Source of the DNA: Saccharopolyspora gloriosae
Lineage (GTDB): Bacteria; Actinomycetota; Actinomycetes; Mycobacteriales; Pseudonocardiaceae
Length of the DNA stretch: 64,000 nucleotides
Direction: 5' to 3'
Assembly (NCBI RefSeq): GCF_022828475.1
Contig: NZ_CP059557.1
Span: forward strand, 2,899,470 to 2,963,469
The stretch's first letter is position 1. The number at the start of each line of letters is the position of its first letter. Shown here piece after piece: positions 5,513 through 43,196 of this stretch. The notes under the pieces were generated by a model, which saw only the letters and a list, made by a program, of their open reading frames with translations, did not search any database and had not been told where the DNA came from. The position numbers and the translations under genes are program-made.

Positions 5513-6073
5513 ATGTCTCCTGATTCTGACGTCATCAAGTGGATCGCGTTCGTCGCCGCACTCGTCCAGACAGTCGTGTCCATCATTCAACTCCAGCAGC
5601 CCAGAAGAGGGACCGAACCTGCCCGGTCGGCCACCGTCGCGTCCGGTCCTCTCTTGGTGGGGCTAGGTGCTTCGTTGTTGAGCTTGTTCGTTGTTGCGTT
5701 GTTCGGCTACCTCTACGAGCGCCGCGGGACCGGCGAGACGGTCTACTACGAGATCCGGAGCCAGTTTGAGAATGCCACGGTCCTTCGATTAGCGATCTTC
5801 CTCGGCTTGCTCCTCGTCTTCCCGCTGGGCGTCGCCGCGATCACCTCGAATGTGAAAGGCATGATGGCGAGCCCCGCAGTCCCCGCACGGCTGTTGGTGC
5901 ACGTTCTGATCTTGTCCACCAGTACCATCGGTTTGGTTGCCGTGATGGCCCAAGAGGCCGCTCGGTCGTCGTATGACACTACTCCCTGGGTAATGCTGTT
6001 CGGGGGAGCCGTGTCAGGTTTCTTCATGGAGGTCGACCCTGCCAAGGAAGCAAGTAGCTCCAGAAACGACTAA
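5513..6073 (+). CDS. Hypothetical multi-span membrane protein
   Basis: The 186-residue product has four or five predicted membrane segments, at about residues 8-25, 45-68, 88-110, 124-146 and 156-172, separated by short charged loops. A YERRGTGETVYYEIRSQF loop lies after the second helix. No catalytic motif is visible and no family is recognised. It starts at ATG 5513 with only a weak upstream purine tract. It sits between the serine recombinase and a convergent pentapeptide-repeat gene, so it is probably cargo of the same island. Confidence 0.55.
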   Translation: MSPDSDVIKWIAFVAALVQTVVSIIQLQQPRRGTEPARSATVASGPLLVGLGASLLSLFVVALFGYLYERRGTGETVYYEIRSQFENATVLRLAIFLGLLLVFPLGVAAITSNVKGMMASPAVPARLLVHVLILSTSTIGLVAVMAQEAARSSYDTTPWVMLFGGAVSGFFMEVDPAKEASSSRND

Positions 6074-6279
6074 TGAAGTGTTTTGAATCACCTTGTCAAT
6101 CCACCGGCGAGTGGCTGTCTCCAAGGTGACGGTAGGTGGCCCGGCGCCGACAGGAGATCAGCTGATAAGCCGCGTTGCGGCATCCGATGTGAACGGCACT
6201 GCACACTTTTCTGCGGCTTCCTCGTCCTCGTCGCCTCGCTCACCAGTTAAAAACCTCACCAAATAGGAAATTTCTAAGT

Positions 6280-8130
6280 TTATTTCGGTGGGAATTCGAT
6301 TTCTGCCCATTGTTGAGAGCGCTTAATTAAGCCGTTTCCGCCAGTGCTTTGAGGAAGATTGACGGTGAAGCCGTCGGGCAGATAGCGAGTCTCGTTAACA
6401 GAAGTAGGGACATTAACACGCAAGAATACATTTTCGAGTGAAATGTTTTCAGGTGCCCCTACGTTTCGAAAGTCAATAGATCGCCCAAAATTCACCCAGG
6501 AGAAGGTGGCATGGGCGGCGAATTCTGATCCGTGAAAATCGACATCTTTGTCAAAGAAAGACGATGAAAATTCGACGGTATTTTCGAACTTGATCCGCAC
6601 GAATCGGGCGTTTCCTTCGAAGCGCACAAGTCTAAAGGAAGCAGGGCCATCGAAGGTGGTTTCGCCAAACTTGACGATCGCCCAAAATTGGCATCCTTCG
6701 AAAATTGACCTCCCGCCAAATGTGGCGTTATGAAATAGGGCGCTGCCATTGAACTTGGAACGTGAAAAGTCGACGCCTTCTATAAAAGAAGCATGGTCAA
6801 ACTTGACGCCGCCACCAAAACGCGTTTCGTCGAACAGGGAAAGCCCGGTAAACGTTGTCCCGTTGAAGCTGGCACCTTGTTTGAATCGCGCAGAGCCGAA
6901 AAGTGTTTTCCCCTGAAAAGAGGCGAATTCAAACTTGGCAGATTCTCCAAGCCATGCTCTTTTTAGGGCGAACGATCCGCCAACATTGACGTGACTGAAA
7001 TTTGCGATACCGTTAACCATCGCAGACTTAAGGTCTGCATTTTTAAGGAATCTTGCGCTATTGAAGTCGACGTTCCGTTTTAGGTGTGCACTCGCGAAAG
7101 TAACGTCTTCCGAAAACGTGGCGCGTGTGAACGTAGCATCTCCGCCGAATCGTGCTCTTTCAAAAGAGGCTTCGTGCTCGAAAGCGGTATTGTGCCAATT
7201 TGAATCACCATCTATTTGGGAGCCGGAAAAGTCTGCTTTATTGGAAAATCTTGCACCGTCAAAGTCGACATCTGTGATGAATCGAGATCGCGTGAAGATG
7301 CATTCCTTTTCAAAGACGGCACCGCGCCAACTTGAATTGCGTCCCATCTGTGCGGAAGAAAAACTCACCTTCCCGGTGAATTGCGCACCGTCAAAGAAGG
7401 ATATGTCGGTCACCTCGGCTCGTTCGAACCGGGCAGTGCCGTCAAATACGGCATCCTCAAAGTCGACGGAACGAAGTCGGCAGTCCGAGATGTTAAAGTC
7501 GAATAGAGTTACTCCGGTCAGGTTTAGGTCGAGATCTTTCCAGCTCTCTCTAAGGTGCTCGCTGCTTCCTTCTTTGGGGCGCAAGTTGCTGACAATTATT
7601 TCCTGTGCTGCTAGGCGAACCTCCTTTTCTTGAGATGGGCTATCGTCTTGAATTGAAGCGTGCTCTTCCATGCGTAGGTACGCGCACAGAACGTTAACGA
7701 TGGCCTGCCGATGCTCTGTGTTCGTATGCGCAAGACGCTCTAGGGAGTACATTCCCGCGAGCCGAACAGGCGCCTTCTCCGAGCCGAGCTGGTCGACCGA
7801 TCGCGAGAAATCTTCACCAAATAGGCGCGCATCTTCTCGGTTTTCGGCAGACTCTCCGAGTCGTTGTTTCCGGTAGGAGACTACAAGTGCCACAACGCCA
7901 CCGATACCACCTACGGTGGCCAGGACAAGTTTGATGAAGTCGAAACTGTCTTTCGTGGTCCACGGTTTATCATCTGCAACCGGCGGTTTGCCGATGATCC
8001 ACCAAATTCCATAACCGACGGCGGCGGCAGTAAGCAAAGCTGCGAGGAGTACGAAAAATATGTTTATGCCGAGACGCATCCGCACTGGTGCCAGTGAGGT
8101 GGAGGGTTTGTGGCTGCGAGGGAAGCGCAT
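6280..8130 (-). CDS. Membrane-anchored pentapeptide-repeat protein
   Basis: The 616-residue product has two N-terminal membrane helices (about residues 18-48 and 68-92, the second next to GGIGGVVALVVSYRKQR). A helical linker with EDFSRSVDQLGS and LAGMYSLERLA follows, and then about 350 residues of pentapeptide repeats of the A(D/N)LxX type (SVDFEDAVFDGTARFERAEV and similar). Such repeats fold into a right-handed quadrilateral beta-helix; the two-helix plus YSLERLA architecture is common in bacterial membrane proteins of unknown role. The gene is clearly richer in A+T than its neighbours, with frequent AAA, GAA and TTT codons, which points to horizontal acquisition. ATG 8130 is preferred to an upstream TTG. 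The function is unknown; defence or stress sensing is only a guess. Confidence 0.8.
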   Translation of the reverse strand: MRFPRSHKPSTSLAPVRMRLGINIFFVLLAALLTAAAVGYGIWWIIGKPPVADDKPWTTKDSFDFIKLVLATVGGIGGVVALVVSYRKQRLGESAENREDARLFGEDFSRSVDQLGSEKAPVRLAGMYSLERLAHTNTEHRQAIVNVLCAYLRMEEHASIQDDSPSQEKEVRLAAQEIIVSNLRPKEGSSEHLRESWKDLDLNLTGVTLFDFNISDCRLRSVDFEDAVFDGTARFERAEVTDISFFDGAQFTGKVSFSSAQMGRNSSWRGAVFEKECIFTRSRFITDVDFDGARFSNKADFSGSQIDGDSNWHNTAFEHEASFERARFGGDATFTRATFSEDVTFASAHLKRNVDFNSARFLKNADLKSAMVNGIANFSHVNVGGSFALKRAWLGESAKFEFASFQGKTLFGSARFKQGASFNGTTFTGLSLFDETRFGGGVKFDHASFIEGVDFSRSKFNGSALFHNATFGGRSIFEGCQFWAIVKFGETTFDGPASFRLVRFEGNARFVRIKFENTVEFSSSFFDKDVDFHGSEFAAHATFSWVNFGRSIDFRNVGAPENISLENVFLRVNVPTSVNETRYLPDGFTVNLPQSTGGNGLIKRSQQWAEIEFPPK

Positions 8131-8290
8131 GAGCAAAGTATCGCCTTATCGCGAGCGATTGGCAACACTGATCAAAAAATGACCGGATTCGCCGTCCGCA
8201 AATTAGTGAATTAGCCTTGTCCTTCCAGTGGCTCCGGGGTACGTTGCGTCATCAAGCTCTATGGCCTGGAGGATCGTCACTAGGTCGTGC

Positions 8291-27942: not shown

Positions 27943-28572
27943 ATGAAGAATATTCGCGTAGCGGGCGTTTCGGTCACAGCGGCAGTCGCGGCTGTCCTGC
28001 TCGCCGGGTGTACCGGCTCCGATCAAGGCATGCCCGGCATGGATCACGGCACTTCGCCGAGTGCCTCGCAGCCGCCTGCCGAAGCCGGCCAGCACAACGA
28101 TGCCGACGTGGCCTTCGCGCAGGGCATGATTCCGCACCACACTCAAGCGATCAAGATGTCGCAACTGGCACCGGAGCGGGCGCAGTCCGAGCAGGTGAAG
28201 AACCTCGCTCGTCAGATCGAAGCCGCCCAAGGCCCGGAGATCGACACGCTGAACGGGTGGCTACAACAGTGGGGTGCCCCGGCACCGCAGGGCGGCATGC
28301 CGGGCATGGACCACGGCTCCATGCCTGGCATGGACCACGGGGGCATGTCGGGCATGATGGCTCCGGAGGACATGCAGAAGCTCCAGCAGGCGAAGGGCGC
28401 TGAGTTTGACCGCATGTTCCTGACGATGATGATCAAGCACCATGAGGGTGCGGTGGGCATGGCCCAGACCGAGCTGGCTCAAGGTCAGTTCCCCGAAGCC
28501 AAGCAGATGGCTGAGCAGATCGTCAGCAGTCAGCAGGCCGAGATCAAGACAATGCAGGACTTGCTGAAGTAA
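27943..28572 (+). CDS. DUF305 lipoprotein, copper-associated
   Basis: The 209-residue product has a lipoprotein signal (VAAVLLAGC, Cys23 as the lipidated residue) and a four-helix DUF305 domain. The two hallmark metal-site motifs are GMIPHHTQAIKM and MMIKHHEGAVGMAQ. Between them lies a Met/His-rich linker with repeats of PGMDHG and a final MSGMMAPEDM. DUF305 proteins are found in copper resistance loci and are thought to bind Cu outside the membrane. It is convergent with the CopA gene and ends in a strong hairpin. An AAGGAA site precedes ATG 27943. Confidence 0.85.
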   Translation: MKNIRVAGVSVTAAVAAVLLAGCTGSDQGMPGMDHGTSPSASQPPAEAGQHNDADVAFAQGMIPHHTQAIKMSQLAPERAQSEQVKNLARQIEAAQGPEIDTLNGWLQQWGAPAPQGGMPGMDHGSMPGMDHGGMSGMMAPEDMQKLQQAKGAEFDRMFLTMMIKHHEGAVGMAQTELAQGQFPEAKQMAEQIVSSQQAEIKTMQDLLK

Positions 28573-28915: not shown

Positions 28916-31249
<2,334 letters not shown>

Positions 31250-31427
31250 GGAGTCCTCCTGTCCATGTACGTGGTCGGCCGGTGTCGTGCTGGCGGGGCC
31301 AGCCCCGAAAGCCACCTCGGATACCCCCGGCCTGTATCGCTCGTCCAGCGGTCGGGTCCAGAGCCTCCGGCGCACGCGAGGTGTGCACGGAGGAGCGGAA
31401 TCGGCAGATGGCGAGCAGCGACGCCCG

Positions 31428-31770: not shown

Positions 31771-31787
31771 ATACCCCCTAGGGGTAT
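31771..31787. promoter_or_regulatory. CsoR-type copper operator
   Basis: ATACCCC-CTA-GGGGTAT is an inverted repeat of the TACCCC/GGGGTA type bound by CsoR copper repressors. It sits 58 bases upstream of the HMA lipoprotein start and would govern the lipoprotein-copA unit. No csoR gene is in the window. Confidence 0.7.
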
Positions 31788-31918: not shown

Positions 31919-32317
31919 ATGGCGCTCAATGCTCGTGATCTCGGGTCCGCTCCTGCTGCGTGGATCATGAGTGGGTTCGCGGCAGCGTTGCTGTTGCTGG
32001 TCGTCGCCGTAGTGGTGGTCGGCGGGGTGTACGGGGGCGCCTCGCTGGTGCAGGTGGCGCCGCGCGACGCTCCGGTGAGGCCGTTTCTGGGGGGTCATGA
32101 ACCGTCTGAGCACGCGTTTTCACGTTTCCACGTGCGGTGGTATGCGCTGACGATGATCTACCTGGCGTTCGAGATGGAAATGCTGTTCATGTATCCGTGG
32201 GCGCTGGTCGTTTCCTCGGTGGGGGCGAGCGCGGTCATCGAGATGTTCGTGTTCTTGGGGATCTTGCTTGCCGGTGTGGCCTATGCGTGGCGGGAAGGGG
32301 CGCTGCGATGGGCGTGA
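31919..32317 (+). CDS. nuoA: NADH-quinone oxidoreductase subunit A
   Basis: The 132-residue protein has three membrane helices. The conserved loop between helices 1 and 2 reads PFLGGHEPSEHAFSRFHVRWY where normal NuoA has the ECG(xx)P loop, so the conserved cysteine is absent. MIYLAFEMEMLFMYPWAL is the family's second helix. ATG 31919 gives a longer N-terminus; ATG 31967 is an alternative. It is the first gene of an eight-gene operon and overlaps the next by 10 bases. Confidence 0.85.
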   Translation: MALNARDLGSAPAAWIMSGFAAALLLLVVAVVVVGGVYGGASLVQVAPRDAPVRPFLGGHEPSEHAFSRFHVRWYALTMIYLAFEMEMLFMYPWALVVSSVGASAVIEMFVFLGILLAGVAYAWREGALRWA

Positions 32318-33507
32318 CCGCTGACTTGCGGCGCTTCGCCGCCGGGGCGCCCCATGTGCTGGTCGCTGAGGCCCCCGGGGGTACCGCTGCTCGATTGGCG
32401 GTTGAGCAGGTGCTGCGTCGACGGGGATGGGTGCAGGCATTTGGCCCGGCGGATGCTGATGTTCTGGCCGTCGTCGGGTCTGCTGGGCCTCAGTGGACGA
32501 ACTTCGTCGATCAGCTGTGGGGTCAGGCCCCGTATCCCCGGGTTCGCGCGCACGTCGGCAACGCGGCCGAGGCCGACATGGCGCTGGAGCGTGCTGCGGG
32601 CCTGCTGGCCGACGGCGGGGCGCTCTCTCTCGACGGGGCGACGGATCACGCGGAGCACGGTCGCCCTGATGACCAGTCCCAGGGTCACGAGCATCTCGGT
32701 GGCGGTGGGATGGACATGCCGGGGGGTGTGCCGATGGCCGATCGTGGGCCGGATCGGGACGGGCTCATGCTCGATCAGCTCCATGTGCCGCTCGGCCCGG
32801 TGCTGCCGGGCTGGCCAGCCGGTCTCGTGCTGCACGCCACGCTGCAGGGCGACGTGATTCAGGAAGCTCGAGTCCAGGTGGTTCGTGAAAACGGCGACGT
32901 GGCGGATTTCTGGAACGAGCCATGGCGTCGCGCGGCGACAGGCGAGTCCGTCACATCGGGGGAGGCCGCTCGACACCGTGCGGCGGCGCACCTGGACAGC
33001 TTGGCGAGGCTGCTGGCGGTGGCGGGTTGGGCAGATGCTGCGCTGCGTGCGCGGCGATCCCGCGACGACGTGCTCGCGTGCTCGCCGATCGAGGTGACCG
33101 CTCGTCGGGTGTGTCGGCTGGCTCGGCGGCTTCGCCGGTCTCGGACACTGCGGTGGCTCACCGACGGGCTCGGCGTCCTCCCGGCAACGGTGGCCGAGGC
33201 CACCGGAGTGACCGGACCTGCGCTGACGGCCTCTCACACTGGGCGTGACGTGCGCGCGCGATGGCAGGCATGGCTGGACGAGGTCACGCGTTCGTTGCCC
33301 ACTCTCGACGACACCGCGCCGTTGGCCGCCGTGGATTCGGGGCCACGAGGCCGGCTCGGCGCAGGCGGGGGTTCGGCAGCACTGCTGGAGGTGCTTCCCG
33401 AGCTGGTGGATGGCGTCGAGCTGGCCGGGGCCAGGCTGATCGTGGCCAGCTTGGACCCCGACATCGCCGGGCTCGACCACTCGGTTGAAGGGGCGGCCAA
33501 TGGGTGA
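32308..33507 (+). CDS. Fused, degenerate NuoB/NuoD-like protein
   Basis: The 399-residue product lies where complex I operons carry nuoB, C and D. Residues about 15-105 resemble NuoB (DADVLAVVGSAGPQWTNFVD ... PYPRVRAHVG), but the four cluster-N2 cysteines are absent; only Cys258 and Cys269 occur, elsewhere. Residues 110-145 form a His/Met-rich linker (DHAEHG, GHEHLGGGGMDMPGGVPM). Residues about 155-395 follow NuoD: LGPVLPGWPAGLVLHATLQG, then RRSRTLRWLTDGLGVLPATV, GVTGPALTASHTGRDVR and ARLIVASLDPDIAGLD, matching NuoD's GPQHPSTHG, NRTxxxRTVGIGV, GxSGPMLR and C-terminal motifs. The quinone-site His-rich loop is changed. It could be a structural dock or a copper-linked module without electron transfer. 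ATG 32308. Confidence 0.7.
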   Translation: MGVTADLRRFAAGAPHVLVAEAPGGTAARLAVEQVLRRRGWVQAFGPADADVLAVVGSAGPQWTNFVDQLWGQAPYPRVRAHVGNAAEADMALERAAGLLADGGALSLDGATDHAEHGRPDDQSQGHEHLGGGGMDMPGGVPMADRGPDRDGLMLDQLHVPLGPVLPGWPAGLVLHATLQGDVIQEARVQVVRENGDVADFWNEPWRRAATGESVTSGEAARHRAAAHLDSLARLLAVAGWADAALRARRSRDDVLACSPIEVTARRVCRLARRLRRSRTLRWLTDGLGVLPATVAEATGVTGPALTASHTGRDVRARWQAWLDEVTRSLPTLDDTAPLAAVDSGPRGRLGAGGGSAALLEVLPELVDGVELAGARLIVASLDPDIAGLDHSVEGAANG

Positions 33508-34429
33508 GGCTCCGATGTGGAGTGTGCTCGTGCTCCCTGCGCTGTTGGCGGTGGGTGCGTTCGCGGCGGTGGTCTTCGATACGGCGTTGGAGGCGCGTGC
33601 TGCGGGACGAGCGTTGTCGGTGTCGGCCGTGGTGATCGCTCCGCTGCGTGCGGTGGTGCGGCTGCTGATCACTCAACGGCGCACGACCACGGCAGCCGAT
33701 GCCGTGCTGTGGCGCACCGGTGTCGTCCTCCTTCCGGTCATTGCGGTGCTGGCGGCGCTGGTGGTGCCGCTGGGCGGGGTGGCAGTGGCGGATCTCGGGG
33801 TGGGGGTCGTGTGGTTCAACGCGATGGAGATCCTGGCGTGGGCGGCGGTGTGGATGGCCGGGTGGGGCCCGAACGCGGCGTTGTCCCTGGTGGGTGGTTA
33901 CCGGTTCGTGGCCCAGGGATTGGCCTACGAGTTGCCGCACATGTTCGCGCTGATCACAGCGGCCACCGGGGCGGGCACGTTGCGGATAGGTGGGATCGTC
34001 GAGGCCCAGTCCGGTTTGTGGTTCGTGGTGTGGATGCCGGTCGCCTTCGTCGTCTATCTGCTCAGCGCGATGGCGATGGCGTTCTGGGGCCCGTTCGACT
34101 CGCCGCTGGGGCGTGATCTCGCCGGAGGAGCAGCGGGGGAGTTGTCCGGAGTGGACCGGCTGGTGTTCCTCGGCGGACGGTGGTTGCTGCTGGTGGTCTC
34201 GGTGGCGATGGCGGTGCCGCTGTTCCTCGGGGGAGGCAGTGGCCCGTGGCTGCCGGGCTGGATGTGGACGGTGCTCAAGACGGCCGCGGTGCTGGGCGTG
34301 GTCGTGTGGGTCGGTCGCCGGTTTCCCACGGTGCGGATGGAGCGGTTCGCGGAGTTCGCCTGGGTGGTGCTGGTCCCGTTGACGATCCTGCAGGCGCTGG
34401 TCGTCGCGCTGGTCGTGCTGATCCGATGA
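33500..34429 (+). CDS. nuoH: NADH-quinone oxidoreductase subunit H
   Basis: The 309-residue membrane protein has eight or so helices and NuoH landmarks: GWGPNAALSLVGGYRFVAQG, LAYELPHMFALITAA and FWGPFDSPLGRDLAG. NuoH normally forms the quinone tunnel with B and D. The usual acidic loop after GPFDxPEAE is altered here (SPLGRDLAGGAAGELSG). ATG 33500 overlaps the upstream stop by 8 bases. It is coupled with the fused NuoB/D-like gene, its expected structural partner. Confidence 0.85.
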   Translation: MGEAPMWSVLVLPALLAVGAFAAVVFDTALEARAAGRALSVSAVVIAPLRAVVRLLITQRRTTTAADAVLWRTGVVLLPVIAVLAALVVPLGGVAVADLGVGVVWFNAMEILAWAAVWMAGWGPNAALSLVGGYRFVAQGLAYELPHMFALITAATGAGTLRIGGIVEAQSGLWFVVWMPVAFVVYLLSAMAMAFWGPFDSPLGRDLAGGAAGELSGVDRLVFLGGRWLLLVVSVAMAVPLFLGGGSGPWLPGWMWTVLKTAAVLGVVVWVGRRFPTVRMERFAEFAWVVLVPLTILQALVVALVVLIR

Positions 34430-34430
34430 G

Positions 34431-35002
34431 GTGGTGTGTGTGGTGACGGTCGGGTTGTTCTGGCTGTTCGCGGTCGGCGCGGTGGTGTCGGGGTTCTTGG
34501 TGTTCCGCTTGAACTCGATGGCGCGGGTGACGTTCGCGCTGCTGGCCTCGTTCGTGTTCGTTGCCGCGGAAGTGATCCTGCTGGGGTTGGCCTATCTCGG
34601 TGTGGTGATCGTGCTGATGATGGTCATGGAAATGGTGATCATGGCCGTATTCATGATCATGTACATGATGAATCCCGCCGGGTTGATGCCGATGGCGATG
34701 TATCACAACAAGACCGGTGCCATGGCGATCTCGGTGGGCACCTTCGTCGTGCTCGCGGCGGGCATTTTTCTCGTTGACTGGCCGCAGCGGGCAGGGACGC
34801 CGCCCCGGATCCGACGTTCGCGCTCGGGGAAGCGTTGATGGGCCCGCACATGCTGACCATGATGACCTTGGGCGTGGCGCTGTTCGCGACGATCGTGGCC
34901 ACCGTCGTGCTCGCCACCCATCGGGGGCGGTACGACCGGCTGGGCGACGACCTGCACGCCGCGCGGGCCGACGATCCGGTGCGCGGTGGGATCGGTCGAT
35001 GA
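34431..35002 (+). CDS. nuoJ: NADH-quinone oxidoreductase subunit J, frame break near 34808
   Basis: The first frame (GTG 34431 to 34838) gives five-helix NuoJ-like text: LFWLFAVGAVVSGFLVFRLN, AYLGVVIVLMMVMEMVIMAV and a Met-rich MIMYMMNPAGLMPMAMYHNK. It stops after SRSGKR. The reading that fits the family continues in another frame as DPTFALGEALMGPHMLTMM, LFATIVATVVLATHRGRYD and ends RGGIGR at 35002, overlapping nuoK by ATGA. A single missing G in CCCCGGATCC near 34808 would join the two. A separate 54-codon gene starting at ATG 34838 (TGATG overlap) is the alternative. Confidence 0.75.
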
Positions 35003-35304
35003 GCCTGGAGCTGTTCTTGCTGCTCGGGGCGGGACTGTTCGCCATCGGTCTTTTCGGTGCGCTGTCGGAGCAGTCGATCGTGATGCTGATGATGGGCTTG
35101 GAGCTGATGCTCAATGGCGTCACCGTCACGGCGGCGGCCTTCTGGCACTACGTTGCTCCGTCCAATGCGGACGGCCAAGTGCTGATCATCGTGGTGATCA
35201 CCGCGATGGCGGTGGAGATGGCGGTGGGCTTCGCAGTGGTGACCTCGATCTTCCGCGCCCGAGACGTGGACATGACCGACATGGCCGCGGATCTCAAGGA
35301 GTAG
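34999..35304 (+). CDS. nuoK: NADH-quinone oxidoreductase subunit K
   Basis: The 101-residue protein has three membrane helices in the Mrp/NuoK pattern: LFLLLGAGLFAIGLFGAL, IVMLMMGLELMLNGVTVTA with the conserved glutamate, and a third with ITAMAVEMAVGFAVVTS carrying another. Both proton-path glutamates are present. ATG 34999 overlaps nuoJ by four bases; nuoL follows after three bases. Confidence 0.88.
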   Translation: MSLELFLLLGAGLFAIGLFGALSEQSIVMLMMGLELMLNGVTVTAAAFWHYVAPSNADGQVLIIVVITAMAVEMAVGFAVVTSIFRARDVDMTDMAADLKE

Positions 35305-35307
35305 CCG

Positions 35308-37179
35308 ATGGGCGCGCTCGGGTGGCTGCTGATCGCGGTACCGCTGGGGACCGGGGCGGTGCTGGCGTGCACCGGGAAGCGAGGCGATCGGATCGCGCCC
35401 GTAGTCGGAATCGCCTGCGCGGGGATCACGGTCGTGCTGGCCTTGTTGGCGTCGGTGGTGCGCCCGGTCGCGACCGCACGGTTCCTGCGAGGGATCGACG
35501 CGGGCGTGGCCGTCGACGGGCTTTCGGCGGTCCTGGTGGTCACGGTCTCCGTGGTCACCTTGGCAGTGCTGGTCTTCGCTGCTGGTGAGTTCGGTCCGGA
35601 CGAGTCGCGGGCTCGGTTTACCGGGCTGATGCTGCTGTTCTCCGGAGCCATGCTCGTCACGGTCACCGCCACCGGACTCGCACTGCTGTTCATGGGCTGG
35701 GAGGTCATGGGCGCGACGAGCTGGGCGCTGATCGGGTTCTGGTGGCACGAACCGCGCCGGGTGCACGCCGCCAACGTCGCCTTCCTGACGACCCGGGCCG
35801 CCGATCTCGGCCTCTACCTCGCAACAGGGGCGGCGCTCGCCGGCGGCGTCGGCACGCTCGTCCTGCCGGAGCTGCCCGCGGCAACGTCACCATGGCTGAC
35901 CGTGCTCACCGCGGGCATCGTGCTGGCTGCACTGGGCAAGTCGGCGCAGGTGCCGTTCCACTTCTGGCTCTCCCGCGCGATGGAGGGCCCGAGCCCGGTC
36001 TCGGCGCTGCTGCACTCGGCGACAATGGTCGCGGCCGGCGCGTATCTGCTGCTGCGGCTGCACTCGTTGCTGGCGGCCTCGGGCTGGGCCGGGCCGCTGG
36101 TGGCCTGGTTCGGTGCGGGTACCGCCCTGGTACTCGGACTGGTTGCGGTCGCGCAAAGCGACCTCAAGCAGCTGCTCGCGGCCTCGACCTGTGCGCAGAT
36201 CGGGTTCATGGTGCTGGCCGCGGGTACCGGTGGAATCACCGCGGGAACGATGCAGCTGGTCGCGCACGCGGCGACGAAGTCCGCGCTGTTCCTGGCGGCC
36301 GGGGCGTGGTTGACCGCGCTCGGTACGAAGGCACTGCCCGCGCTGCGGGGCGCCGCGCGTCACTATCCGGTGGTGGGCGTGACGTTCACGGTCGCCGCCG
36401 CGACGCTGGCCGGGCTGCCCCCGCTGTCGCTGTGGGTCACCAAGGACGCAGTGCTTGCCGCGACGCTGGAACGTGCGCCCGAGCTGTACGTGTTCGGATT
36501 GGCCGCTGCGGTGGTCTCTGCCGTGTACAGCATCAAAGCGGTCTGGTTCGTCTGGCAGCCGGAACCTTCCGGTGCCGAAGCCGGTTGGGGCACCACGCAG
36601 CCCGGCTCCCACGAGGTATCCGCATTTGCCCGGCCGGTCCTGGCGATCTTGGCTGGAATGGCTGCGGTCTTGGGTGTGCTCGGCCTCCCGGCGGTAGCCG
36701 AGCGCATGCGGGGACTGCTCGGTGCGGGACCTGCCGCCACACCCACAGCGTGGGAACTTGCGCTGTCGGCGGCACTTACCATCGGCGCGTCGGCTCTCGC
36801 CTGGTGGTGGGGAGACCGACCGATGCCGGTCACCACCGCTCTACGGCGGTGGCTAGCAGCGTGGCTCGGGTTCGAGCGCGCCGCCACGGTGCTCGTCGTG
36901 CGGCCGACGATGGCGCTGGCACGCGCGCTGGCGGCCTTCGATGACCGGGTCCTCGACCGAGCGGTGATGGCTGGTCCCGCATTGGTGATGCGGCTGGCCA
37001 AGCTCGTTGATCGGCGCACTGAAATTCCCGTCGACGGTGTCGTGCATGGCGTGGCCCGCGGTGCCGGGTGGCTAGGAGCGCTCGCCCGCCGCCCGCAGAC
37101 CGGGCAGCTGCACCAGTACTACGCCCAAGCCGTCGCGGTGCTGGCCGTGCTCGCCCTGCTGATCATCCTCGTGAGGTAG
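35308..37179 (+). CDS. nuoL: NADH-quinone oxidoreductase subunit L
   Basis: The 623-residue protein is an antiporter-like proton-pumping subunit with about 15-16 helices. It has FMGWEVMGATSWALIGFWWH with the key glutamate, LGKSAQVPFHFWLSRAMEGP with the pump lysine, and SALLHSATMVAAGAYLLLRL. The C-terminal part (about 500-600) has the amphipathic segment and last helix. ATG 35308. It forms the distal pump with M and N in this operon. Confidence 0.9.
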   Translation: MGALGWLLIAVPLGTGAVLACTGKRGDRIAPVVGIACAGITVVLALLASVVRPVATARFLRGIDAGVAVDGLSAVLVVTVSVVTLAVLVFAAGEFGPDESRARFTGLMLLFSGAMLVTVTATGLALLFMGWEVMGATSWALIGFWWHEPRRVHAANVAFLTTRAADLGLYLATGAALAGGVGTLVLPELPAATSPWLTVLTAGIVLAALGKSAQVPFHFWLSRAMEGPSPVSALLHSATMVAAGAYLLLRLHSLLAASGWAGPLVAWFGAGTALVLGLVAVAQSDLKQLLAASTCAQIGFMVLAAGTGGITAGTMQLVAHAATKSALFLAAGAWLTALGTKALPALRGAARHYPVVGVTFTVAAATLAGLPPLSLWVTKDAVLAATLERAPELYVFGLAAAVVSAVYSIKAVWFVWQPEPSGAEAGWGTTQPGSHEVSAFARPVLAILAGMAAVLGVLGLPAVAERMRGLLGAGPAATPTAWELALSAALTIGASALAWWWGDRPMPVTTALRRWLAAWLGFERAATVLVVRPTMALARALAAFDDRVLDRAVMAGPALVMRLAKLVDRRTEIPVDGVVHGVARGAGWLGALARRPQTGQLHQYYAQAVAVLAVLALLIILVR

Positions 37180-37182
37180 CCA

Positions 37183-38688
37183 GTGCTGTCACTGATCGTC
37201 TTCCTCCCGCTGGCCGCTGCGGTCGCCCTGGCCGCGGTGCCCGCCTCGGCACCGCGGCGCGTATTCGGGTGGAGCTGGATCGCGATCACGGCGGCCGATC
37301 TCGCCCTGGTCGTCGCGGCCTGGATCGGCTACGACGCCGGAACCGGTCTGGCGTATGAGGAGAATCTGAGCTGGATTCCCAGCGCCGGAGTCGGATACCA
37401 CATCGGTCTCGACGGACTCTCGCTGCCGCTGATCGCGATGACCGCACTGCTGTTCCTCGCTTGCGCGGTCTATTCGCTGCCGCACACGCAGCGAATCAAG
37501 AGCTTCGTGCTGCTGTTCCTGTTCCTGCAGACGGTGAGCCTGGGACTGTTCACCGCGCTCGATTTGATCCTGTTCTTCGTCTACTTCGATCTGTCCATCG
37601 TGGGCATGTACTTCGTCATCGCCGGATGGGGCCACGGCAACGCACGCCAGTCCGCGCTGAAGTTCTTCCTCTACACCTTCCTCGGCTCGCTGGCGCTCCT
37701 GCTCGGATTCATCGGCCTGTACTTGGCCGCCGAACCCCACACCTTCGACATCCTCGCGCTCACCCGGGCGAACCCGTTGGCGGGCAGCGGGGCCTACGGC
37801 GGACTGGTGCTGCTCGCGATCGGCGTCGGTCTCGCGGTAAAGACCCCGATCGTGCCGTTCCACACCTGGCTGCCACCCGCACACACCGACGCCCCGGCCG
37901 CCGGATCAGCGATTCTGGCCGGAGTGCTGCTGAAGATGGGCACCTACGGATTCGTCCGCATCACGATGCCACTGCTGCCCGACACGTGGCGCCAGTACGC
38001 GGTGGTCATCGTCGTCCTAGGCGTGCTCTCGGTGCTCTACGGCGCACTCGTGGCACTGGCCCAGGAGGACTTCAAACGGATGGTGGCCTACACCTCTGTC
38101 AACCACATGGGATACATCGTCCTCGCGGTCGGCGCGGCCGGGACCCTCGGCGGTAGTGATGCGCAAGCGCGATCGTTGGCCGTGACCGGTGCGGTGACCC
38201 AGATGGTCAGCCACGGCCTGCTCACCGCCGTGCTGTTCCTGCTCGCCGGGCTCTTCTACGACCGTCGCCGCACCTACGACATGGGCGCCTACTCGGGCCT
38301 GGCCGGTCCGGCGCCGGTCTTCGCGGGGACCACGGCCCTGGTCGCGTTCGCCTCCTTCGGCTTGCCCGGCTTCTCCGGGTTCATCGCCGAGTTCCAGATC
38401 TTCACCGGCAGCCTCGCCTCCGCCACCGTCGCCACCGCACTCGCACTGCTCGGAATCCTGATCACTGCGGGACTGTTCCTTCGGGTCTTGCACCGGGTCT
38501 TCCTCGGGCCCCTGCGGGTACCCGATTCGCCCGGTGCGGCCCGTGGGTTCACCGATCTGCGACCCAGCGAGGCCACCGCGATCCTGCCCCTGCTGGGACT
38601 CGCCATCGTCATCGGCGTGCTGCCGCGCTTCCTTCTCGACGTGATCGAACCCGCCGCGATGACGTTGATCGGACTGGTCAGCCGATGA
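37183..38688 (+). CDS. nuoM: NADH-quinone oxidoreductase subunit M
   Basis: The 501-residue protein has 14 predicted helices and the NuoM signatures: DGLSLPLIAMTALLF, FFVYFDLSIVGMYFVI with the acidic residue, and VKTPIVPFHTWLPPAHTDAP with the lysine and histidine of the channel. GVLLKMGTYGFVRI and YTSVNHMGYIVLAVGA follow. The GTG start at 37183 lies three bases after the nuoL stop, and the stop overlaps nuoN by ATGA. Confidence 0.9.
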   Translation: MLSLIVFLPLAAAVALAAVPASAPRRVFGWSWIAITAADLALVVAAWIGYDAGTGLAYEENLSWIPSAGVGYHIGLDGLSLPLIAMTALLFLACAVYSLPHTQRIKSFVLLFLFLQTVSLGLFTALDLILFFVYFDLSIVGMYFVIAGWGHGNARQSALKFFLYTFLGSLALLLGFIGLYLAAEPHTFDILALTRANPLAGSGAYGGLVLLAIGVGLAVKTPIVPFHTWLPPAHTDAPAAGSAILAGVLLKMGTYGFVRITMPLLPDTWRQYAVVIVVLGVLSVLYGALVALAQEDFKRMVAYTSVNHMGYIVLAVGAAGTLGGSDAQARSLAVTGAVTQMVSHGLLTAVLFLLAGLFYDRRRTYDMGAYSGLAGPAPVFAGTTALVAFASFGLPGFSGFIAEFQIFTGSLASATVATALALLGILITAGLFLRVLHRVFLGPLRVPDSPGAARGFTDLRPSEATAILPLLGLAIVIGVLPRFLLDVIEPAAMTLIGLVSR

Positions 38689-40109
38689 ACATGAACGAGA
38701 ACCCCGCCGCGCTGATCCCCGAACTCGCGCTGGTCGCCGGAGCCGTGCTCGGTCTGCTGCTGGGCGCCTGGCTGCCGCGACAGCGGCAATGGGTGGTACG
38801 CGTGCTCGCGGCCACCGCCTGTGTCGTCGGCCTGGCCGCCACCGTCGTCGCGATGCGGTCGGCTCCCGAGACGGTGTTCGGTGACAGCTTCGTCGTGGAC
38901 ACCGCGACCAACGCGGTCCGGTTCATCGTGCTGGCCGCCACCTTGCTGGCCCTGTGTCTGTCGATCGACACGGTTGACTCCCAGCACCGGGAGACCGAGT
39001 TCTACGTGCTCGTGCAACTCGGCGCCCTGGGCACGATCATGCTCGTCGGCGCGGCAGATCTGCTGCTGCTCGTCGCCGCCTACCTGCTGGCTTCGCTGCC
39101 GCTGTACGCGTTGGCCGGCTTCGCCAAGGACTCGCCGGGGACGGAGGCCGCGTTGAAGTACTACCTCATGGGCGTCTTGTTCGGTGTCCTCATGCTCACC
39201 GGCATCACCGTCCTCTATGGCGCGGGCGGGGCCACCGAATACGCCACGCTTGCACGAACGCTTCCAGTCGCCTCGCACGCGGCGGTCGCCGTTGGTGTGA
39301 TCGGAGTCCTTGCCGGGCTGCTGTTCAAGATCGGCGGTGTACCGGTGCACTTCTGGGTTCCCGACGTCACCGAGGGCGCCACGACACCCGTCGCCGCGTT
39401 CGTGACCACCGTTCCCAAGATCGGCGGGCTCGCCGCCATCTACCGGCTCGTGGCCGAGGCACTGCCCGCAGTGAGCGTTGACTGGCCACTGCTCGTGGCG
39501 ATTCTGGCTGCCGGGTCGATGACGCTAGGAAACCTCGCCGCGTTCTTCCAAGACAATGTTCGCCGCCTGCTCGGCTACTCCACGATCAGCCAGGTCGGAT
39601 ACCTGCTCATGGCGGTCGCGGTGGCGATTCGCAGCGACCTCGCGCTGCCCACCCTGTTGTTCTACCTGGCCGCCTACGCGGTGACCAACCTCGGTGCCTT
39701 CGCGGTGGTTGCGGAACTCCCGCACGCGCCCCGGATCACCGATTACCGCGGACTTGCCCGTCGCCATCCGGGGCTGGCGGCGGTCCTAGTCGTGTGCCTG
39801 CTGGGCCTGGTCGGCACACCACCTACCGCGGTGTTCCTCGGCAAACTCGGCGTATTCGCCGCATCTATCGACGGGGACCTCGCCTGGTTGGCCATCCTTG
39901 CGGTCATCAACACTGTCGCCAGCCTTTTCTACTACCTCCGCTGGATTGCCCCTACCTTCCTCGCGGCGCCCGATTCCGAGGGGAACATGTTGGTTCCTGC
40001 GGGACTGTGGTCGGCGGTCGCCGCCTACACCGCCGGAACCGCCTCCCTCGTCCTAGGTGTAGCGGGAGGCCTCGCGATCTCCCTGGGGGCCGGCTCGTTG
40101 CTGCCGTAG
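38685..40109 (+). CDS. nuoN: NADH-quinone oxidoreductase subunit N
   Basis: The 474-residue protein is the third antiporter-like subunit. It has AADLLLLVAAYLLASLPLYA, FKIGGVPVHFWVPDVTEGAT with the channel lysine, and RRLLGYSTISQVGYLLMAVA. It closes the operon A-[B/D]-H-J-K-L-M-N. No nuoC, E, F, G or I lies upstream or downstream within the window, so this complex cannot take electrons from NADH in the usual way using these genes alone. Confidence 0.9.
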   Translation: MNMNENPAALIPELALVAGAVLGLLLGAWLPRQRQWVVRVLAATACVVGLAATVVAMRSAPETVFGDSFVVDTATNAVRFIVLAATLLALCLSIDTVDSQHRETEFYVLVQLGALGTIMLVGAADLLLLVAAYLLASLPLYALAGFAKDSPGTEAALKYYLMGVLFGVLMLTGITVLYGAGGATEYATLARTLPVASHAAVAVGVIGVLAGLLFKIGGVPVHFWVPDVTEGATTPVAAFVTTVPKIGGLAAIYRLVAEALPAVSVDWPLLVAILAAGSMTLGNLAAFFQDNVRRLLGYSTISQVGYLLMAVAVAIRSDLALPTLLFYLAAYAVTNLGAFAVVAELPHAPRITDYRGLARRHPGLAAVLVVCLLGLVGTPPTAVFLGKLGVFAASIDGDLAWLAILAVINTVASLFYYLRWIAPTFLAAPDSEGNMLVPAGLWSAVAAYTAGTASLVLGVAGGLAISLGAGSLLP

Positions 40110-40461: not shown

Positions 40462-41778
40462 TCACGCGCGAAAACGATCGGCCGCGTCGCGCAGAGCCAC
40501 CGCCAGCCGGTCCACGTGTTCACGTGTGGTGAACAGTGCGGGTGTCACTCGGACGCAGCTTCCGCGTAGCGGCCCCTCGCGGGCGACGGTGAAGATGCCG
40601 TGCTCTTGCAAGAGGTAGTCGGCGATGGCCTCGTTGTCCGTCTCCGTCGTCCGGCCGGTGATCCGGAAGCTGGTGATGGCGCCGTACATCGACGGTTCCT
40701 GTGGAGTGAGCACTTCGATGTCGGTTCGGTCGGCGACGGCGGAGACCCAGCGGTCACGGAGATAGCGCAGCCGCGCCTGTTTGATCGAGCTCCCCAGCGA
40801 TTGGTGGAAGTCCAGCGCGGTTGGGACCGACAACACGCACGCGACGTCCCGAGTACCGGAGACCACCCGCGACCGAATGTCGGTAACGGGGTAGGACTCG
40901 TCGGCGAACGCTGGGTCGATCGCGTCGAGGCGGGATCGCCGGATGTAGAGGAATCCGGTTCCCAACGGGGCGCCGATCCACTTGTGCAGGGAGAATCCGG
41001 CGAAGTCGGCGTCGAGATCGCTGATCGTGAAATCGAGCTGTCCCCAGGAGTGCGCGGCGTCGACGATGACGTCGATGCCGTGGGACCGTGCCATCGCGGT
41101 GATCTCGCGGACGGGGGTGGCGAGGCCGGTGCGGTTGTTGACGTGGGACAGCAGCAGCAGTTTCACACTCGGGTGGTCTCGGAACGCCGCGGCATAGGTG
41201 TCCAGAACGGCTTGCCGAGTGGCGGGCTCCGGCAGTGCGATGGAGACGACGTCAACGCCTCGCCGGTCGCGTAACCAGTCCATCGTGTCGATCATGTCCG
41301 GGTAGTCGAGGTCGGCGTACATGACCGCATCGCCGGGCCGCAGCTCGTGGTAGCCCGCGATCAGGTTCTGCAACGCCTCGGTCCCGCTCTGAGTCAGCGC
41401 GATTTCCTCTGTCTGCGCACCGAGTAGCGCGGCGATCCGTTCCCGGATCTTCTCGGACTCAGGTTTGAACGCGTTGCGCAGCAGGTGCGAGTTCTGTGCG
41501 TTCAATCGGTCCACGTTGTCGTGGAAGGCTCGGCGAACGGTATCGGGCATGATCCCGTAGTAGCCGTTCTCCAAGTTGATGAACTCGTCGCTGACGGTGT
41601 AGCGCTGCGCGACTCGTCGCCAGAATTCTTCGTCGCCCGCGAGGGCCTCCGGGCTGACGCCCGCAGGTGGCCTGATCGGCCCGTCTTCGTGGCCGGGCGA
41701 TGCGGAGCAGGCCGAGACCGCCCCGATGGCGGGTAAGGCTGCCATGCCGGTGAACATGCGGCGTCGAGACAGGTTCAT
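40462..41778 (-). CDS. Tat-signal class V aminotransferase-fold protein
   Basis: The 438-residue product begins MNLSRRRMFTGMAAL, a twin-arginine signal, and its signal ends VSACSA, a lipobox-like site with Cys24. The rest is a PLP-dependent class V fold (isopenicillin N epimerase / cysteine desulfurase group): TQSGTEALQNLIAGY, VIVDAAHSWGQ with the PLP-binding Asp240 and His243, and GFSLHKWIGAPLGTGFL with the Schiff-base Lys266. ATG 41778 is chosen because the Tat motif follows directly. A periplasmic PLP enzyme is unusual, since cofactor must be loaded before Tat export. It is third in an operon with a synthase and exporter. Confidence 0.8.
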   Translation of the reverse strand: MNLSRRRMFTGMAALPAIGAVSACSASPGHEDGPIRPPAGVSPEALAGDEEFWRRVAQRYTVSDEFINLENGYYGIMPDTVRRAFHDNVDRLNAQNSHLLRNAFKPESEKIRERIAALLGAQTEEIALTQSGTEALQNLIAGYHELRPGDAVMYADLDYPDMIDTMDWLRDRRGVDVVSIALPEPATRQAVLDTYAAAFRDHPSVKLLLLSHVNNRTGLATPVREITAMARSHGIDVIVDAAHSWGQLDFTISDLDADFAGFSLHKWIGAPLGTGFLYIRRSRLDAIDPAFADESYPVTDIRSRVVSGTRDVACVLSVPTALDFHQSLGSSIKQARLRYLRDRWVSAVADRTDIEVLTPQEPSMYGAITSFRITGRTTETDNEAIADYLLQEHGIFTVAREGPLRGSCVRVTPALFTTREHVDRLAVALRDAADRFRA

Positions 41779-41831
41779 GGGCAGTTCTCCAGTTCGAAAG
41801 ACATGGGGGATATCGGTGCCGCGCGGTCGGC

Positions 41832-43196
41832 TCACCGTCGTCCGCGTGCAGGCGTGTAGTCGGTGTGGACAGGGCCGTAGGGCTCAGATGGCCGGATTAG
41901 GATTGGCGCGGTCCGCTCGGTCGCGGGTTCGAGAACTCCGCTCATGCTGCGCAACACCGGGGGATGCGAGGCTTCCGCGTGGCTGCTCGCTCGTTCGGTG
42001 AGTTCGGCCTGGTTCGCGCGGAAGCAGCACAGGCAGGCCACTGCGCAGGCCACGCCCATCAGTGCGATCGACAGCGGTGCTGGAAACACGACGGCCATCG
42101 GCCCTGCCAACAGCGGCCCGGCGGACTGCCCGACGAGCAGGAAGCTGTTGGCCGAGCCGACATAGCCGCTACGACGCGCGTCGGGAGCGTGTTGACTTAC
42201 GTGGAAGAACAACGACTGGGCCAATGCCGCGAAACTCGCCCCTTGCAACAGCCGCAACACGATCAATCCCACGGCACCGAGCGGGAGCGCTTGCGCTGCG
42301 ATGCTGAGCGCGCATCCGGCGGAAGCCCAGATCAGGGCGCGCACCGGACGCTGGAGATGGTCGTTGTGACGCCCCCACCAAAACGACGCGATCAGCGTTG
42401 CGCCCCACGTCAGAGACTGGAACACGCCGACCCACAGCTCCGCGTGCCCGGCGGGGAAGGTCTGCTGCACATGGGTGGCGAAGACGGGGATCAACCCGTA
42501 AACGCCGAGGTAGGCGGCGATGGCCGCCACTGCCAGCGGAACCATCCCCGGGAGTTGCCAGAACCCGGTTTTCGGCGCCGAGTCGTCGCGCATCGTCCGG
42601 CGCGTGGGCTCGGGTGCGTGTTCCGCGCGGAGACCCCACCCGCATGCGGCGGCGAGCAGGACGGCGAGCACGGCGATGGTGGTCATCAATGCGCTGAGCC
42701 GGCCGGCGCCGACCAGGAGCCCGCCCAGCAGCGGTCCGGTCAACGATCCGGCCGCGGTGGCGCTGAAGGATTTGCCCAGAGCCGAGCCTCGCTTGCCGGC
42801 GGGTGCGGCCGATCCGGCGAACGCCTGGGCCGCCTCGACGACACCACCTAGGCCGCCTTGCAACAGCCGTCCCAGCACCAGCACGACCGGGTTAGTCGCC
42901 GTGGCCATGACGAGCATGGCCAGCGCGAGCCCGACCAGAGCACGCACCACCATCCAATGCTGCCCGACCCGGTCGCCGAGGCGACCCCACAGCGGGGTCG
43001 CCACGGTCAACGCGAGCGCGGGCGCGGCGATCGCCACTCCCGCCCAGGTTTGGACTGCGGCGAAGCCTTGCACGCCCAACCCTTGGACATAGAACGGCAT
43101 GACCGGCACGAGCATCATCAGTCCGGCGGTGTTGACGAACTGGCTGGCCCACAGCAGCACTAGATTGCGCCGGTGGGTACGAGCCGAGGTGCTCAC
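41832..43196 (-). CDS. MFS drug/metabolite exporter
   Basis: The 454-residue protein has about 12 helices and the DHA1-type multidrug exporter loop PLWGRLGDRVGQHWMVV. ASQFVNTAGLMMLVPVMPF is helix 1. Its start overlaps the synthase gene's stop by ATGA, and the aminotransferase gene begins 53 bases after its stop. The coupling suggests it exports the amino-acid product of the operon. Confidence 0.8.
   Translation of the reverse strand: MSTSARTHRRNLVLLWASQFVNTAGLMMLVPVMPFYVQGLGVQGFAAVQTWAGVAIAAPALALTVATPLWGRLGDRVGQHWMVVRALVGLALAMLVMATATNPVVLVLGRLLQGGLGGVVEAAQAFAGSAAPAGKRGSALGKSFSATAAGSLTGPLLGGLLVGAGRLSALMTTIAVLAVLLAAACGWGLRAEHAPEPTRRTMRDDSAPKTGFWQLPGMVPLAVAAIAAYLGVYGLIPVFATHVQQTFPAGHAELWVGVFQSLTWGATLIASFWWGRHNDHLQRPVRALIWASAGCALSIAAQALPLGAVGLIVLRLLQGASFAALAQSLFFHVSQHAPDARRSGYVGSANSFLLVGQSAGPLLAGPMAVVFPAPLSIALMGVACAVACLCCFRANQAELTERASSHAEASHPPVLRSMSGVLEPATERTAPILIRPSEPYGPVHTDYTPARGRR

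Follow-up and report, generated by a model that had tools for sequence, protein, structure and literature searches.

A complex I homologue without known redox ligands and its predicted link to copper

Introduction

It has long been asked how the quinone chemistry of respiratory complex I moves protons at a distance, far out in the membrane arm, and a locus in Saccharopolyspora gloriosae approaches the problem from the opposite side: what does a complex I-like membrane arm work with when the redox reaction is missing? The locus lies in a 64,000-nucleotide stretch of contig NZ_CP059557.1 (positions 2,899,470 to 2,963,469 of the forward strand), which we call the window. Eight genes run there in the order A-[BD]-H-J-K-L-M-N, mostly overlapping or nearly touching, and BD is a single protein that combines a NuoB-like and a NuoD-like part. 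A sequence-only reading of the window had suggested that the encoded complex may move protons or other ions with neither NADH nor an N2 cluster as its driver or gate. The analysis reported here supports that suggestion, because the fusion lacks cluster ligands and the operon lacks an NADH module. It also adds methionine arrays and a copper context, neither of which the earlier reading contained. Together with the His/Met-rich linker of BD and, in one clade, its heavy-metal-binding domain, neighbouring copper genes and CsoR-type operators, the methionine arrays indicate that what replaces the redox reaction is probably copper.

Results

A NuoB-NuoD fusion occupies the place of NuoB, NuoC and NuoD

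The 399-residue open reading frame (ORF) that the sequence-only reading had placed where B, C and D are expected is present between nuoA and nuoH, and overlaps both the end of nuoA (32317) and the start of nuoH (33500). The gene order is canonical, as that reading had stated, and none of the C, E, F, G and I genes was found between nuoA and nuoN in the window. Genes for NuoI or electron input were also missing from nuoA to nuoN on four annotated plasmids that carry the whole operon. Pfam recognized the A, H, K, L, M and N products of the window above cut-off, and J and BD below theirs. The NuoJ match stops at a frame break near 34805, on either side of which the translation is 92% identical to the NuoJ of locus L033 (tblastn), and the NuoJ proteins of five relatives pass the cut-off. 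The break is either a sequencing error or a recent mutation. The pump module had been described as complete, which is correct in that genes for A, H, J, K, L, M and N were all found, but does not extend to the frame-broken nuoJ of the window.

On its own, the BD protein of the window matches PF00346 (E-value (E) 0.0046, Pfam) and the NuoB family TIGR01957 (E 0.1, NCBIfam), both below cut-off, and a phmmer search of the PDB returned no match at E<=10. Profile-profile comparison with hhalign aligned BD residues 34-84 with 22 NuoB sequences (probability (Prob) 97.4, E 1.1e-11) and residues 150-386 with 18 NuoD sequences (Prob 97.7, E 2e-12), the latter over nearly the whole NuoD profile including its C-terminal end. 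Reversed-profile controls gave Prob 0.2, and the crossed pairs (N-terminal part against NuoD, NuoD-like part against NuoB) gave 0.1-0.3. Both homologies claimed by the sequence-only reading, to NuoB in the first part and to NuoD up to the C-terminus in the last, are thus borne out. Relatives give direct matches as well: three BD proteins exceed the NuoD Pfam cut-off of 24 bits (G017, 49.1; G011, 43.0; G026, 42.9), and a single chain from locus L018 matches PF00346 above cut-off (E 5.7e-16), the heavy-metal-binding domain (HMBD) PF19335 (E 1.5e-12) and, below cut-off, PF01058 (E 0.0073). A profile of the BD family retrieves canonical NuoB and NuoD in turn. Some BD starts in the family were called about seven residues too early.

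The 'CC' pair of the NuoB N2 ligands, already reported missing from the window, is found in none of 87 BD proteins. Their NuoB-like part contains 0-3 cysteines (86 members), fewer than the four N2 cysteine ligands of complex I. The motif GP.HP..HG, present in 18/18 canonical NuoD sequences, is gone from BD, and even GP.HP survives in just two of the 87 proteins (L010 and L073); [RK].DY occurs in 17/18 canonical NuoD but in a single BD protein (L007). We take these two motifs to be the quinone-site histidine and tyrosine. The conserved loop cysteine of NuoA is likewise lost, as had been noted for the window (where the residue is Gly58): the column holds serine, glycine or alanine in 74/74 family members, compared with one canonical NuoA. 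By these comparisons, BD is a NuoB-NuoD fusion that lacks both cluster ligands and the usual quinone motifs.

The genome (6.88 Mb) has its own complex I, with nuoD at 6455529, nuoB at 6457947 and nuoJ at 6448486, and canonical A, H, K, L, M and N matches lie in the adjoining stretches. Because this ordinary complex I is separate, the operon in the window is an addition and not the NADH dehydrogenase of the cell. The sequence-only reading had considered that separate nuoB, nuoC and nuoD genes elsewhere might replace BD; the nuoB and nuoD genes at 6.455-6.458 Mb belong to the canonical complex and are not such a replacement. At another site (G000:C1:2553884-2554165; L002, L093), an ORF of about 118 residues matches positions 74-169 of PF00346 (E 5.7e-12). 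No complex I gene was recognized around it in a by-eye check of the listed ORFs, and we read it as a remnant of NuoD or of a hydrogenase large subunit.

Methionine arrays and altered channel residues in the membrane subunits

Ten positions of NuoJ (M30, M63, M64, M68, M71, M75, M79, M80, M88 and M90, counted from the start at 34431) are methionine in all 72 family members examined and in 0-1 of 30 canonical NuoJ sequences. Over the N-terminal stretches compared, methionine accounts for 10.3% of residues in the family versus 3.0% in canonical NuoJ. At the M64 column, all 30 canonical sequences have a tyrosine, presumably the pi-bulge tyrosine of complex I. Three residues past this column, in the third transmembrane helix (TM3), E67 is invariant in the family (72/72) where canonical NuoJ has alanine (30/30), and H92 is also found in 72/72 members. 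A hand calculation that assumes a regular TM3 helix places M64, M68, M71, M75 and M79 within about 80 degrees.

NuoK carries methionine at positions 29, 31, 70 and 74 in 72, 71, 72 and 67 of 72 members, respectively, compared with 0/30 canonical sequences at each position, and these residues flank the retained E35 and E73. In NuoA, M86, M91 and M109 are present in 73, 74 and 73 of 74 members, with other residues in the one canonical NuoA compared, and the NuoA of the window also has the family-specific H71. (Column counts for A, K, L, M and N exclude L161 and L162, which are canonical complex I, and the canonical reference for A, L, M and N is the single copy of the genome itself.) Relative to that copy, the large subunits show no methionine enrichment, in a comparison that still included L161 and L162. 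By eye, four plasmid-borne NuoJ and NuoK have nearly the same methionine pattern, with MMNPAG changed to MGMNPA in L213-L215. Because methionine is easily swapped for leucine or isoleucine, we infer from its invariance in Actinomycetota and Alphaproteobacteria alike that its sulfur is what matters.

The TM5 glutamate and the channel lysine are functional residues of antiporter-like subunits, and the sequence-only reading had stated that channel lysines and glutamates are kept. This holds for NuoL, in which both are retained in 70/70 members, but not for the glutamate of the other two subunits: NuoM has aspartate in the TM5 glutamate column in 63/70 members, glutamate in six and a gap in the remaining one, and NuoN has leucine, valine or phenylalanine there in 70/70.

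Several of these changes would fall at a cation site described for the Mrp cation/H+ antiporter. According to the passages of PMC7419157 used here, that site consists of E706 in the NuoJ-like part of MrpA, two residues of the NuoK-like MrpC and the TM5 glutamate of MrpD; the cation passes E706, which is the counterpart of the complex I pi-bulge tyrosine, and the E-channel of complex I coincides with the Mrp exit path for Na+. At the presumed equivalent place in the family, the NuoJ tyrosine has become methionine, a new glutamate stands three residues on, methionines surround both NuoK glutamates and the NuoN TM5 glutamate is lost. Taken with the copper context, these changes would be read most simply as a site and path for a soft-metal cation.

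The BD linker and a heavy-metal-binding domain

The linker between the NuoB-like and NuoD-like parts of BD has a median length of 91 residues as cut, and its histidine content is 7.3% versus 1.8% elsewhere. In the 26 residues ahead of the invariant Gly152, methionine reaches 11.9% versus 1.3% (86 members in each case). Histidine richness is not universal, because 26 of the 86 linkers have at most one histidine. The Cys/His pattern of HMBD occurs in 14/87 BD proteins, all belonging to family f19; the one run against Pfam is the L018 chain mentioned above.

Copper genes and CsoR-type operators accompany the operon

At least one of five copper gene types was found at 30 of 60 loci, which comprise 59 named loci and the window: CopA-like at 17, DUF305 at 14, CsoR at 12, multicopper oxidase-like at 8 and HMA chaperone (CopZ-like) at 6. 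Neighbouring genes were called by a GC-frame rule, and one representative per cluster was checked against Pfam. Multicopper oxidase or sulfocyanin-like genes stand beside some of the operons. Among 18 further genome regions, 15 hold family members, and 11 of these 15 have copper genes by BLAST to the neighbour clusters. CopA adjoins 12 of 35 sampled loci (11/34 genomes) compared with 0.61 expected; this figure was calculated for the 34 genomes as if related ones were independent, from matches at E<=1e-40 that also take in non-copper P1B types. A further neighbour is a BNR-repeat protein family (cluster 12), which stands beside the operon in 10/60 loci (L040-L079); the 'F510_1955 family glycosylhydrolase' of the FB24 plasmid described below is a relative with 36-44% identity to all ten.

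Ahead of nuoA, the window has an exact match to a CsoR-type operator; 0.03 such matches are expected in the window at <=3 mismatches. The parts of PMC3902906 consulted give the streptomycete CsoR operator consensus as ATATACCCCTNAGGGGTATAT, and the operator core TACCCCCTAGGGGTA recurs in one of the variants listed there for the S. lividans copZA1 operator oligonucleotide. Across the family, a CsoR-type box lies upstream of nuoA in 15/75 segments, with 0.013 expected per segment; the 75 include the boxless L161, which is canonical complex I. In the window and in part of the family, the operon is thus encoded with copper genes and has predicted copper regulation.

Distribution, phylogeny and plasmids

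The 59 named loci include members of the Pseudonocardiaceae, Streptomyces, Streptosporangiaceae, Nocardiopsis, Geodermatophilaceae, Acidimicrobiales, Nitriliruptorales and Roseobacteraceae. Seven genes were tested for (A, BD, H, J, L, M and N), and 53 of the loci have the full set, the exceptions being L071, L075, L078, L080, L084 and L087. At L075 (Streptomyces sp. TRM49041), nuoA is followed by an 845-residue ORF that begins like BD, and the H, J, L, M and N genes were not found. Individual genes are split at three other loci (BD over two ORFs in L065, nuoM in L049 and nuoH in L053), which reflects either frame breaks in draft genomes or decay.

The BD search counted 35 of 396 genomes, weak matches included; among the weak ones, G290 and G353 have no locus yet sit in this count, G127 and G213 were rejected as members because they carry canonical complex I, and G252 was rejected because it has no such operon. 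In the class of the window, BD is present in 19/296 genomes (E below 1e-20 with the BD part covered), one of which, G626, has internal stops. The profile also matches canonical NuoD (~282-426) and NuoB (25-87), and only these 19 of the 118/296 genomes that match at E<=1e-10 are members. In Alphaproteobacteria, 77/240 genomes match at E<=1e-10 and just the starting genome (1/240) reaches the member criterion.

A NuoM tree, arbitrarily rooted and including canonical complex I as the long-branch rows L161 and L162, has three deep clades with the copper label in 6/6, 8/16 and 26/48 rows. The label changes 18 times on the tree compared with 24.3 in shuffles, 5/500 of which were as low. The rows nearest the window are Saccharomonospora sp. 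CUA-673 and Saccharopolyspora sp. HNM0986. Alphaproteobacterial rows (L083, L085, L086 and L088-L091, mostly Roseobacteraceae) branch among the actinobacterial ones, a placement that suggests transfer between the phyla.

BD relatives were found in 16 of 72,556 plasmid records. Curtobacterium pC1a encodes, on one strand, an HMA protein, a P-type ATPase, nuoA, a 'hypothetical protein' that is BD, and H, J, K, L, M and N. A CsoR-type box lies between the ATPase gene and nuoA, and genes for a DUF305 protein, a multicopper oxidase and a metal-sensitive regulator (CsoR-type) are nearby. In Arthrobacter sp. FB24 the operon is on a conjugative plasmid and comes after sulfocyanin-like, DUF305 and multicopper oxidase genes, and on Pseudonocardia alni pPaSha1 it faces regulator, HMA and ATPase genes. 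The annotation table of the region on Gordonia hongkongensis p2 lists no copper gene, and the incomplete tables for Rhodococcus oxybenzonivorans and Ornithinimicrobium contain part of the operon. The current annotation of these plasmid genes is NADH dehydrogenase subunits plus a hypothetical protein.

Features of the window

Table 1. Positions of the operon, its parts and neighbouring copper-related features in the window.
Feature	Position	Strand	Basis
DUF305-like, Met/His-rich protein	27943..28572	+	Clusters with L054 3788-4441 (PF03713 E 2.1e-51)
Cu-type P1B ATPase (CopA-like), divergent from operon	28916..31375	-	Clusters with L066 5338-7722 (Pfam HMA + E1-E2 ATPase)
CsoR-type operator ATACCCCCTAGGGGTAT	31771..31787	.	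Exact match, 131 bp ahead of nuoA start
nuoA-like	31919..32317	+	PF00507 E 2.5e-24
Fused NuoB/NuoD-like protein BD, 399 residues, without cluster ligands	32308..33507	+	ORF, Pfam, NCBIfam, profile comparison, family search
NuoB-like core of BD, residues 34-84	32407..32559	+	hhalign against 22 NuoB
His/Met-rich linker of BD and MDMPGGVPMA...DRDGL motif, about residues 116-152	32653..32763	+	Composition, 86 members
NuoD-like part of BD, residues 150-386, quinone-site motifs lost	32755..33465	+	hhalign against 18 NuoD
nuoH-like	33500..34429	+	PF00146 E 3.6e-43
nuoJ-like, first helices, methionine array, E67, H92	34431..34838	+	Frame breaks near 34805
Out-of-frame continuation of nuoJ (last helix and tail)	34805..34996	+	tblastn of L033 NuoJ
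nuoK-like	34999..35304	+	PF00420 E 4e-14
nuoL-like; TM5 Glu and channel Lys kept	35308..37179	+	Pfam, NCBIfam, columns
nuoM-like; Asp136 at TM5 Glu position	37183..38688	+	Pfam, NCBIfam, columns
nuoN-like; Leu134 at TM5 Glu position	38685..40109	+	Pfam, NCBIfam, columns

Downstream of the operon, the minus strand at 40462-43196 encodes an aminotransferase-like protein with a lipoprotein/Tat-like start and an MFS-type transporter, as read from the translations alone. The 2-kb bin at 6001-8000 has a GC fraction of 0.507 compared with 0.639 and 0.598 in the flanking bins, and a 618-residue ORF lies at 6280-8136 on the minus strand; this is possibly acquired DNA.

Discussion

From sequence and gene neighbourhood, we conclude with high confidence that the operon encodes a complex I homologue without known redox ligands that is tied to copper. 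That the complex exports Cu(I) is proposed with moderate confidence. On balance, we favour a redox-free complex I homologue that would move Cu(I), most likely outward and in exchange for protons. This would probably make it a proton-driven copper pump of a kind not previously described; among the matches listed for the open-licence PMC literature, no title or abstract start describes such a complex.

In this eight-subunit membrane complex, copper handling would replace the redox reaction of complex I. Cytosolic Cu(I), free or delivered by a CopZ-like chaperone, would bind the His/Met-rich linker of BD and pass via NuoH and NuoA into a methionine-lined NuoJ/NuoK cavity at the place where Mrp binds its cation. 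It would then be released outside, with protons entering through NuoL, NuoM and NuoN. With at least two protons per Cu(I), such an exporter could build a steep outward gradient and would work beside the ATP-driven CopA. More tentatively, and a little less readily than export in exchange for protons as such, we suggest that the complex I scaffold acts as a multi-proton-driven Cu(I) exporter in which a methionine stripe of NuoJ TM3 and NuoK occupies the former E-channel and is loaded by the metal-binding BD.

Other explanations draw on part of the same evidence. Copper might be a signal and not the cargo, with its binding at the BD linker and NuoJ/NuoK opening or closing a proton path or a Na+/K+/H+ antiporter under copper stress. 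The invariant channel residues of NuoL (70/70) would suit such a valve, and Mrp, as far as the passages cited above describe it, shows that the architecture can run without redox chemistry. The ten invariant methionines of NuoJ, seven of them within residues 63-80, nevertheless exceed what a regulatory site would need, and we regard this explanation as unlikely. Transport in the opposite direction is also rather unlikely: a methionine-lined path would carry Cu(I) inward, driven by the proton-motive force, and so provide copper for cuproenzymes, the multicopper oxidases encoded nearby among them. Some operons do adjoin genes for multicopper oxidase or sulfocyanin-like proteins, and Ctr1, which has methionine triads in the part of its literature cited below, is an importer. 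However, CsoR-type boxes and CopA/CopZ-like partners are signs of export or detoxification, and the His/Met-rich linker and HMBD belong to BD, whose homologues face the cytoplasm.

A plain Na+/H+ or K+/H+ antiporter, with the methionines and copper neighbours incidental, would fit the homology of the subunits to Mrp parts; it is improbable, given that methionine arrays and copper clusters occur together in separate clades, joined in some members by HMBD or CsoR-type boxes. Equally improbable, in our view, is a redox complex in which copper replaces N2, with a Met/His site near BD exchanging electrons between the Cu(I)/Cu(II) couple and quinone. NuoH is retained and copper binding seems likely, but the NuoD histidine motif is gone, [RK].DY is confined to one of 87 BD proteins and the conserved NuoJ tyrosine is lost. 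The frame-broken nuoJ of the window, the BD of L065 in two ORFs and the bare nuoA and BD-like start of L075 might be taken to indicate a decayed complex I operon without function. We consider this highly improbable, because the seven tested genes are together at 53/59 loci, the operon is carried on plasmids and the ten NuoJ methionine columns are invariant in 72 members across three deep NuoM clades.

Several points weigh against Cu(I) export in exchange for protons. At 30 of 60 loci, including most of those in Streptomyces, none of the five copper gene types was found in the flanking DNA examined, and 60 of the 75 upstream segments yielded no CsoR-type box. The copper label is clustered on the NuoM tree, and the loci are therefore not independent. 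The direction of transport is inferred from context, and the methionine arrays could bind copper without moving it. In Mrp, the counterpart of the NuoN TM5 glutamate couples H+ to the cation; since NuoN has lost this residue, coupling would have to differ from that of Mrp. Finally, with its nuoJ frame-broken, the copy in the window strain may be inactive.

If Cu(I) is nonetheless the substrate, the complex would be a new kind of bacterial copper transporter, borne on plasmids, and would represent a new class of secondary transporter derived from a primary pump. The coupling element of complex I could then work with a moving metal ion, as its driver or as what it drives, in place of quinone chemistry. 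A natural homologue that keeps the pumps and the NuoH/J/K/A junction without known redox ligands isolates this coupling element, and the methionines that now line its junction single out Cu(I) as what probably drives the complex or is carried by it.

With respiratory complex I (NDH-1), and also with its 11-subunit forms that lack an NADH module, the complex described here shares the A, H, J, K, L, M and N subunits, in the same order, and recognizable B and D domains. In contrast, it has B and D fused, lacks C and I, has lost the N2 ligands, the quinone motifs and the NuoA loop cysteine, and carries methionine arrays in J, K and A. A canonical partial complex I was accordingly set aside, because the N2 ligands, quinone motifs and NuoI/input module are missing. 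Group 4 [NiFe] hydrogenases belong to the same NuoB/NuoD/NuoH superfamily, and the NiFe ligand motif of their large subunit consists of two CxxC pairs. No CxxC pair was found in the NuoD-like part of 86 BD proteins, which has 0-3 cysteines; BD therefore lacks NiFe ligands, unlike these enzymes, and a hydrogenase was set aside as well. Fused NuoBCD proteins are reported from Desulfobacterial classes, in complexes that the relevant passages of PMC12361115 describe as complete. They resemble BD in joining B and D in one chain, but C, E, F, G and I are missing here and the ligands are lost; the word copper does not appear in the main text of PMC12361115.

The Mrp antiporter is also redox-free, with antiporter-like subunits and a cation site at the NuoJ/NuoK/NuoN-like junction. 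Unlike Mrp, the present operon has no MrpE, MrpF or MrpG genes, its L and J genes are separate where MrpA joins them, and its span from A to N contains no additional genes, either in the window or on the four annotated plasmids; it has NuoA, NuoH, a B/D module and methionine arrays, and has lost the NuoN TM5 glutamate. Among copper transporters, CopA-type P1B ATPases and CusA bind Cu(I) within the membrane through methionine. The Cu(I) filter of Ctr1 is made up of methionine triads, as stated in the part of PMC6437178 consulted. The methionine arrays described here would share with CopA, CTR1 and CusA the use of methionine as a Cu(I) ligand within the membrane, in an unrelated set of proteins that has CopA merely as a neighbour.

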